A stretch of 64,000 bases of DNA, from contig OY979725.1 in NCBI GenBank assembly GCA_963855995.1, forward strand, positions 8,704,883-8,768,882, given 5' to 3'. The translations under genes were made by a program, and so were the position numbers. Source of the stretch: Muricea muricata (lineage: Eukaryota > Cnidaria > Anthozoa > Malacalcyonacea > Plexauridae). Under the pieces are notes generated by a model that saw only the letters and a program-made list of their open reading frames with translations, was not told where the DNA came from and searched no databases. This document shows positions 13 to 2,874 of the stretch, piece after piece (the stretch's first letter is position 1; each line of letters begins with the position of its first letter).

Positions 13-2874
13 CTACCTGTTCGGTGTCAGCCTTGGATTGAATCCATTGTCATTGTCATTGTCATCATCATCATCATCATCATCATCATCATCATCATCA
101 TCATCATCATCATCATCATCATCATCATCATCATCATCATCATCATCATCATCATCATCATCATCATCATCATCATCATCATCATCATCATCATCATCAT
201 CATCATCATCATCGTCATCGTCATCATCATCGTCATCGTCATCGTCGTCGTCGTCGTCATCAGAATCGTCATGACCAAAGTCATCATCATCATCATCATC
301 ATCCACATCCTCTCCATCGGTATCAGCATCTCCCCCATCTTCACCGCCATCCTCATCTCCTGCCTCTCCATCGACATCTGCATCTCCACCTGCGCCAGCG
401 TCTCCGTCGGCATCTCCATCCCCACCTGTAACAACATTACCACCCGAATCAACGCCTCCGTCAACGCCTCCGTCGCCGCCACCACCTGTGACCACCTCCG
501 TTGTCAGGGTTACATTAATGAGATCTACCAATGGTGGTGGAGCAATCCTGGAAACAAAATAATTTTGTTTCACCTGTCTTGGGGATACCTGGGTCTTTTC
601 TGTTTGAAGACAATACGACAATAAAGCTTGTGAAATATCTGTTTTCAGGCTAAGTATATATGGAACATTTTTGGCGAACGTTTTGATCCTAAATCATATT
701 ATTTGTCAAATGTCGTATAAAGGTTATCATTTAGTTTTTCTAGTGCAAAATGGAGCTGCAATTTGGTGGAATATACTTGTCAAAGAGCTGAGCATACCAG
801 GAATACATTAAAAGAACACAGGAAGATAAATTACCATAAAATTTAAAACGACTGTCCAAATTAGTAAAATTCGTTAACAATAAACTCCTGTTGCCAAGGA
901 AATAAGCGTTCGTGTAAAGTAAAAATAATGCTATAATATCATTCAAATCTTGCACTGAAAACATCAAACATATATTGTTAAGTATTGTACTTTCGAACAG
1001 AAAATGTTTTTTATTTTCATTCTGGGAAACTATGGAGCATACAGCGTGGTGCTCTGTGGTGTTGGAAGTTAACTGATGATTTTGAAATTGCGAGTTCAAA
1101 TCCAACTCAAAACTTTACCAGTTGTTACTAAAATAACTAGTTGAGTTCGGTTGGTTTATCGGTCAATCATGTGACTGTTTTTCCAATGTAGTTGTTCACA
1201 CAGTCACACATCTGTTTTTTTAACAGTTAAGTAGGTTACTTACACATACTTTGATTTGGAAAACATTAATAGTTTAATCCAACCGCGAGGGTTCATTTAA
1301 GGTAAAGCTCAAACAATCTATCAATACTGGAAAAATATTTACACCCACCTGATTTTTACTATTCCATTTCGAAAGCTTCCGACCTGACGAACTCGAAACA
1401 ATTCACCGCCATGAGAGCATTCGCTCAAAAACGTTTAATTTTTGCTTAGAAGACGTTAGATTGCGCGATCATTTGATGATGTCTTTTGGCCTAGATACGC
1501 CTCGAAGGCATAATTGCGCAACGTACGAATATTGTAGAACGCCAAAATTGTCACCCCATGCAATAGTATTATGAACTAAATGCAGATTAAAATTTTCAGT
1601 AAAATTAAGCCTTGTTGCCATTTTGTCGCAAACGTGTCGTATACATAACATAACGGTCTCGTAGAGATAGACTCTAAGACAATATGGACCTTAGGCTCTT
1701 ATTTCTTGTCTACATGAAAGCTAGAATAAGAAAATGCTGGAAATAAAATAGAAATATCCTCCGGAATAAAATATCTGTTTTCATTTTCTCGAGCTGCGCT
1801 AAATTTGACAAGAATCGACAAAAGAATCAAGAAGATTTTAAGTACAGTATTTTATTTAGTTTTAGTTTGCCGTCGTCTTTGTAGCTATACATGTTGAGGT
1901 CTGTATTTACGATACATTTACGACCCAATTTAAAAGCAGACTGTAGTCATGCAATTAAATTTCATTAGTTTTCAAATTCCACAAATTATGGGAAGTACTA
2001 CAGACTGCGAGCAAAGCAAAGCACTGCTCTTTGATTTCAACGTGTGATGTCATTGAATTATTATAGCACGTATTGGTTATCGTATCTTTGTTTAATAACA
2101 CTCTGAATGAAACCAAAAAGGATTTGAACTCACACTTTCAGAAACAAAGTGAGATATTTGAAGATATCTAGGTTTCGTATGGAAATGTTTCAGTTATGCA
2201 CGACACGTTTGTGTGTGGTATTAGAAGTGGTGAATCCAGCACGACAATTTGATTATGCTTGGTCTTAGACAAAACTTAAATATGATAATGTCTCGCAAAT
2301 AATGACATGACATTATGCATTCATTTACAAATTGATCGTTTTTACAGTGTATGAATAATGGTCTGGCATGCTTTGCCACTTGAAATTAGCTGGACGCTCA
2401 ATAGTTATGAAAGCCCAAACACATTCATTCACCCTGGGTCGGTTATACGAAAGGTGGATAGCATGGATAGCGTTTCTAAACACGTTCAAACCTGCTAGAA
2501 CTCATATTAAAGCATTTTCGAGCTAAAGTCGCTCTTTATCACTTGCGAGTTCAATATCCCTGGTGTCATTGCTTTTTATGCCTTTCTGTGGCAGTTGAAA
2601 AAAATCACTATCCAGTGGATAGCGCGATCCATCTTTCGTACAACCTTCCTCAGTACTTTTGGTCAAGTAATGTTCAGTTCGGACAATTGATGGTTGAAGC
2701 TATTTGCTGTAGAATGAATTGGGATTCTACTTACATCCCTTCACCCTTTTTAACTTCTGTCGTCACATTTGCGTCAGGAGGCGAATTTTCCGCGGATCTT
2801 ATACTTCGGCCATTGCAGATTGCAAGAAGTCCAAAAGTGAGGAGGACACATGCCAAGGTCGCTGTTATCTTCAT
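13..2874 (-). CDS. Secreted poly-aspartate acidic protein, two exons (SAP/CARP-like)
   Basis: Exon 1 (2874-2735) starts MKITATLACVLLTFGLLAIC, a clear signal peptide, followed by a short Ser/Pro/Asn stretch. It ends in phase 2 at a GTAAGT donor. Exon 2 (547-13) follows a TTTCCAG acceptor in the matching phase, giving 224 residues. Residues from about 70 to 140 are Gly/Asp/Glu/Val rich (GGDGDADGDAGAGG-type). Residues about 143-209 are 67 uninterrupted Asp. The C-terminus is NDNDNGFNPRLTPNR. No Cys is seen in the mature part. Near one end of the repeat GAC and GAT alternate, so Asp is kept while the codon varies; this supports the minus-strand reading over Ser, His or Ile frames. Secreted Asp-rich proteins of this layout occur in coral skeletal matrix, where they are thought to bind calcium; the role here is inferred. 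The stop overlaps a possible donor (CAG|GTAGAT), so a further exon outside the window is possible. Confidence 0.8.
62..275. repeat. (TCA)n trinucleotide microsatellite encoding the Asp run
   Basis: A near-pure TCA/GAT repeat of about 210 bp, with interspersed TCG units from about 212 to 260. On the minus strand these are GAT and GAC, both Asp. A length-variable allele is expected, because perfect trinucleotide repeats of this size slip easily. Confidence 0.95.
2400..2660. repeat. Interspersed repeat with GGATAGCG core, copy 1
   Basis: Holds GGTCGGTTATACGAAAGGTG, GTGGATAGC, GCGAGTTCAATATCCCTGG and CCAGTGGATAGCGCGATCC, followed by CTTTCGTACAACC. Related blocks occur at about 10500-10735 and 36000-36200. 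The short inverted pieces (CTTTCGTACAACC against GGTTATACGAAAG) suggest a non-autonomous DNA element. No coding capacity is seen. Confidence 0.6.
2735..2874 (-). CDS. Exon 1 of the poly-Asp protein: signal peptide
   Basis: This exon encodes 46 codons plus two bases. The start ATG (2874-2872) lies about 55 bp below a TATAAAAA box on the same strand. The hydrophobic core is followed by Cys-Asn-Gly, a likely cleavage site near residue 22. The donor reads GGGAT|GTAAGT. A longer overlapping frame on the plus strand has no such features and was discarded. Confidence 0.82.

Follow-up and report, generated by a model that had tools for sequence, protein, structure and literature searches.

The skeletal proteins SAP1 and SAP2 of A. 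millepora carry runs of aspartate (PMC4043741), and coral acid-rich proteins, for which a D+E content above 28% has served as a rule, precipitate carbonate in vitro (PMC4878875). In the scleractinian lineage the acidic stretches of acid-rich proteins were extended (PMC6824150, PMC8382919). Some secreted Asp-rich proteins of octocorals match nothing in databases (PMC6824150), and low-complexity domains abound in three of the six skeletal proteins specific to red coral (PMC7853314); such orphans are therefore already on record. The D-repeat of asporin is a coding microsatellite (PMC1526645) that interacts with calcium and promotes the mineralization of collagen (PMC6771297), and poly-aspartate induces liquid CaCO3 precursors in vitro (PMC8854647).

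The locus described here lies at one edge of a 64-kb stretch of DNA (the window, by which we mean the whole stretch analysed) and very probably comprises a gene for a secreted protein with 67 consecutive aspartates. Our reading of that protein as a whole, to which we assign a probability of about 45%, is a secreted, disordered polyanion that belongs with the acidic mineral-matrix proteins and whose Asp tail was lengthened by slippage. The gene is read from the minus strand in two exons, which when joined in frame give 675 nt and 224 aa, including the Asp run (Asp67). The ORF in the Asp frame (13..693) has no Met, so an upstream exon is needed. Upstream of that exon a TATA box (TATAAAAA; 2935..2928, minus strand) is present, as the original prediction had it. 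It lies 32 nt 5' of the A at 2903 in a TCAGT motif (2901..2905, minus strand) picked out by eye, which we take to be initiator-like; the transcription start site is likely nearby. The start ATG (2874..2872, minus strand) follows 29 nt 3' of the same A, and a second in-frame ATG lies 5' of it at 2898. Coding exon 1 (2874..2735, minus strand; 140 nt) contains 46 complete codons plus the first two bases of codon 47, and encodes a predicted signal peptide (MKITATLACVLLTFGLLAICNG; aa 1-22, 2809..2874, minus strand) plus 25 further residues, the last of them split by the intron.

The intron (548..2734, minus strand; 2187 nt) runs from GTAAGT to TTTCCAG. Its donor, GTAAGT at 2734..2729, ranked third of the 157 GTs on the minus strand of positions 1-3100, and its acceptor, ATTATTTTGTTTCCAG followed by G as the first base of exon 2 at 547, ranked first of the 153 AGs there. 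Twenty-two in-frame pairs, drawn from donors at 2732-2814 and acceptors at 470-693, link the ATG at 2874 to the Asp frame; the 2735/547 pair scored 18.5 and the next best 11.8, using generic splice weights not trained on the present genome. The junction originally proposed, which places the signal-peptide exon in frame with an exon encoding Gly/Asp-rich sequence and Asp67, is this top-scoring pair. Within the intron, positions 2535-2644 are a copy of an interspersed repeat also found at 10520-10617 and 36033-36191, the copies being 79-83% alike. Coding exon 2 (547..13, minus strand) ends in a TAG stop codon at 15..13, only 12 nt from the window edge. A candidate alternative donor (CAG/GTAGAT; 11..19, minus strand, last exon base 17), sixth of the 157 GTs in rank and of fair strength, shares bases with the stop codon; the protein could therefore end differently, perhaps in a further exon beyond the window edge.

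To ask whether the arrangement exceeds chance, we searched for it as a cassette, defined as a signal-peptide-like ATG with a phase-2 donor (GTRAGC was admitted too) and a TATA box at a set distance. In the real window a signal-peptide-like ATG with a donor occurred eight times; two of these were the ATGs of the present gene (2898 and 2874), and the ATG at 2874 was alone among the eight in combining phase 2 with a TATA box so placed. Across 200 first-order Markov sequences, each 64 kb and double-stranded, 13 cassettes were found, an expectation of 0.065 per sequence, which scaled by hand to the roughly 3 kb upstream of the acceptor on one strand is of the order of 0.002; both figures are indicative, as the heuristics are our own and the TATA distance was chosen after the gene had been seen.

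That there is no such protein at all, the locus being a non-coding microsatellite joined by chance to an exon, or else a plus-strand poly-Ser or poly-His sequence, strikes us as very improbable. It is true that any stop-free frame through a triplet repeat stays open, and the plus frames do give Ser and His ORFs. Base substitutions in the repeat do not help. Over a wider stretch of 88 codons that takes in the tract, 19 codons depart from GAT by a single base, 15 of them at the third position, 3 at the first and 1 at the second; another 3 codons have two or three bases changed. Departures inside the Asp run are synonymous by definition and so alone provide no evidence, and the third-position ones may have been copied by slippage, hence would not be independent events. 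The silent position of the plus-strand Ser frame is moreover the same base as that of the Asp frame, so the departures do not choose a strand. When 512 ORFs were ranked by a crude codon score trained on the two longest ORFs of the window, the Asp ORF came third and the overlapping plus-strand ORF (275-559) fourth; per codon, the plus-strand ORF scored 0.60 against 0.42 for the Asp ORF, and the ORF containing exon 1 (2731-2940) was absent among the 70 best ORFs listed. Both training ORFs are Pro/Gln-rich, and the score therefore favors such a composition and was given little weight. What chooses the strand is the gene model, in which a TATA box precedes an ATG whose signal-peptide exon is joined in phase, through a strong donor, to the top-ranked acceptor, together with a stop codon at 272-274 that the plus-strand Ser frame meets on its way through the repeat. 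The poly-Ser and poly-His readings were set aside on these grounds.

Secretion of the minus-strand product, as first proposed, agrees with the gene model and with a signal peptide recognized by our own heuristic (hydrophobic core KD 2.72, small residues at -3 and -1); no second hydrophobic segment was found past aa 30, where the best 19-aa mean was 1.14. If cut after Gly22, the putative cleavage site, the mature chain has 202 aa, of which 98 are Asp and 8 Glu. At 48.5% Asp and 52.5% D+E, with about -100 charges computed at pH 8.2, it is the Asp-rich protein that had been expected. With Asp67 removed, the remaining 135 aa are still 23.0% Asp and 28.9% D+E and carry a charge of -33.9; slippage is thus not the sole source of the acidity. 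Much of the remainder is a Gly/Asp-rich region (aa 68-142; 262..486, minus strand) whose 75 residues are 36% Asp and 33% Gly. Codons for Gly and Val are varied outside Asp67, so this is not a simple repeat. The segment before it, aa 23-66, is weakly acidic (6/44 residues). Trypsin would release a single short peptide, at about aa 27-42, which bears a glycosylation sequon. Two N-glycosylation sequons (Asn36 and Asn58) and one Ser-Gly are present, while the 224-aa protein, with its C-terminus uncertain, has no RGD and no KDEL-like end, and the mature chain no Cys.

Asp67 itself (aa 143-209; 261..61, minus strand) is encoded by 57 GAT and 10 GAC codons. Fifty of the GAT codons form a perfect (GAT)50 run (213..64, minus strand, codon reading), so Asp67 is a trinucleotide microsatellite within coding sequence. 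The predicted uninterrupted run and the length of 224 residues hold, but most of the run is pure GAT microsatellite and the protein's end could differ, as noted above. No other perfect triplet repeat longer than 21 nt occurs in the 64-kb window; a 21-bp tandem repeat of 4.5 copies with 100% matches lies at 33108-33202. Nine of the ten GAC codons are at the opposite end of Asp67 from (GAT)50, the arrangement that recent slippage gives. Such a perfect run is equally expected of an unstable microsatellite without selected length. These features favor an alternative in which the gene is real and its product secreted, the GAT expansion is harmless and its length neutral, and the Gly/Asp region does the work, or nothing does. 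The rest of the chain being independently Asp-rich argues against that alternative, as does the concentration of single-base departures at the third position, with the proviso on slippage copying already given. On balance we consider neutral length rather unlikely.

Under our preferred reading, an acidic matrix protein with a lengthened tail, the signal peptide would route the protein into the secretory pathway, a step for which the evidence in the sequence, by heuristic, is good. The mature, strongly charged chain of about 202 residues would then attract many Ca2+ and Mg2+ ions by counter-ion condensation, binding them weakly over the length of the Gly/Asp region and of Asp67. Calcium binding by such a polyanionic chain is expected from polyelectrolyte chemistry, and the comparable proteins lead to the same expectation. 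In a calcifying host, Ca2+ would be concentrated at the mineralizing surface and amorphous calcium carbonate stabilized or templated, by analogy with synthetic poly-aspartate, which does likewise. The tail would have been built by GAT slippage onto a Gly/Asp protein that was already acidic, and its length should then vary between alleles. As for translation, in yeast and human systems 10 Asp placed after full-length GFP were translated normally, and acidic runs behind short N-terminal leaders often abort translation (PMC9718836). Asp67 starts at residue 143 and should therefore be translatable, with the reservation that the tested runs were of 10 Asp, not 67. The mineral-matrix role, the likeliest use provided that the host calcifies, we put forward tentatively and by analogy, as having a little less than an even chance. 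The coral-skeleton reading, which takes a calcifying host for granted, is plausible. The further proposal that the gene is an encoded counterpart of the synthetic poly-aspartate from which liquid carbonate precursors are made, with an unbroken Asp67 block carried on a disordered Gly/Asp chain, and in which unstable GAT length alleles would heritably tune the stability of the mineral precursor, is a long shot.

A cation-binding polyanion could also serve outside mineral, whether secreted or stored in granules: in a nematocyst-like capsule matrix, for osmotic pressure or calcium, or in mucus or glue. Cnidarian nematocysts build osmotic pressure with cation-binding poly-gamma-glutamate (PMC9205923), and a polyacid produced from a gene could act by the same physical principle; the sequence, for its part, has nothing specific to mineral. 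Against such a use, the Asp-run secreted proteins in the published accounts available are proteins of mineral or matrix, with the limit that the literature search was aimed at those. We judge a non-mineral use to be decidedly unlikely. Were the host non-calcifying, the Asp67 protein would be a secreted polyacid with another use.

Database searches returned few matches to the protein. Pfam, searched with aa 1-145 at E up to 0.1, gave no domain. Among PDB sequences, the whole protein at E up to 10 matched nine, four of them with E of 0.037-0.038 over residues 93-200 and the other five with E of 0.68-6.3. None of 600 patterned stretches from IMG/VR was confirmed as a relative, nor were any of 594 from GTDB genomes (aa 1-128). 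These four collections are without invertebrate genomes, and their blanks therefore say little about animals. Within the window, tblastn at E up to 10 against positions 3001-64000 found no convincing paralogue: aa 1-145 gave seven weak matches (best E 1.5) and aa 1-47 gave ten (best E 0.025, at 31857-31943). Literal peptide strings sought in the literature matched only for D20, by title never for the present protein; three other strings found nothing.

Other genes in the window give some idea of the host. An exon at 55044-55214 matches tyrosine phosphatase in Pfam (E 5.2e-14) and also in PDB sequences; it follows a 1472-aa Pro/Gln-rich ORF without a Pfam match, the whole spanning 48747-55214 on the plus strand. 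We take this to be possibly a PTPN23/HD-PTP-like gene. At 62249..62037 (minus strand) is the last, C-terminal exon of prohibitin-1 (best E 1.8e-19 among PDB sequences, no match in Pfam). Prohibitin-1 and tyrosine phosphatase exons together indicate a eukaryote; an animal origin is probable from a PTPN23-like layout, and no feature found marks the host as a coral. An ORF at 19040-19402 (plus strand) presumably resembles the C terminus of a reverse transcriptase of the non-LTR retrotransposon type; it had no Pfam match, and none of 19 IMG/VR or 68 GTDB stretches was confirmed. A second secreted-peptide gene lies at 15776-17842 on the plus strand, with a signal peptide (MKSWTVLALLFAICAVLVSVGHS), an acidic pro-region, a KR site and then a stretch containing an unbroken run of 11 Arg (16811-16843), encoded in part by a CGT repeat. 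Its exons, placed by eye, are near 15776-15906, 16729-16898, 17544-17588 and 17820-17842, and the two pieces of it scanned had no Pfam match at the cut-off. Its layout resembles that of a cationic host-defence or neuropeptide precursor.

The interest of the poly-Asp gene hinges on its host, its expression, and selection on the length of the Asp run. The unbroken run provides a natural experiment on how pure poly-Asp behaves as part of a secreted protein, and on whether the strength of mineral control can depend on a coding microsatellite.

Compared with described systems, the protein shares the general features of acidic skeletal and shell matrix proteins: a signal peptide, by heuristic, and no ER retention signal, its C-terminus being uncertain. 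Like SAP1 and SAP2 it is acidic, with Asp runs amid Gly and Ser, and SAP1 has a signal peptide as well (PMC4043741). The runs of the two coral proteins are described, from fragment records, as the units G[D7]S and SG[D6]GD, whereas here there is a single run without Gly or Ser breaks; in SAP1 a GPI site is predicted and an RGD occurs (PMC4043741), and the present protein has no RGD. A pattern search found neither unit in the 224-aa protein, and its assignment to the SAP type is, as far as tested, unsupported. With the SAARP and CARP4-5 proteins it shares secretion, Asp richness and a D+E content above 28% (52.5% in the mature chain, 28.9% without Asp67), the last a loose criterion. Those proteins have their acidic domains separated by a conserved non-acidic region and, in some cases, predicted anchors (PMC4890752, PMC4043741), unlike the present one, where only aa 23-66 are weakly acidic and a second hydrophobic segment is absent. 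Similar in layout is Tcr_654638 of Tridacna crocea, an acidic shell protein with Asp-rich low complexity and a C-terminal Asp run; aspein and Asprich, mentioned in the same paper, are likewise acidic bivalve shell proteins with Asp-rich low complexity (PMC8217771). Asporin, a secreted matrix protein of vertebrates, is a parallel in that it too owes an Asp run to a coding microsatellite; its run is N-terminal, in a protein of the small leucine-rich proteoglycan family (PMC6771297). An asporin-like leucine-rich proteoglycan was considered and rejected, since Pfam finds no leucine-rich repeats in aa 1-145. No Asp run as long as 67 appeared in the accessible parts of the literature searched, mostly not searched for run length, and no record is claimed. 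The published runs number 7 Asp in the SAP1 unit, 6 in the SAP2 unit (PMC4043741), 2-15 in the Tridacna protein (PMC8217771) and 8-19 in asporin (PMC6771297), against an unbroken 67 here. The poly-Asp protein is of a known functional kind, that of the acidic skeletal and shell proteins, in an extreme form.
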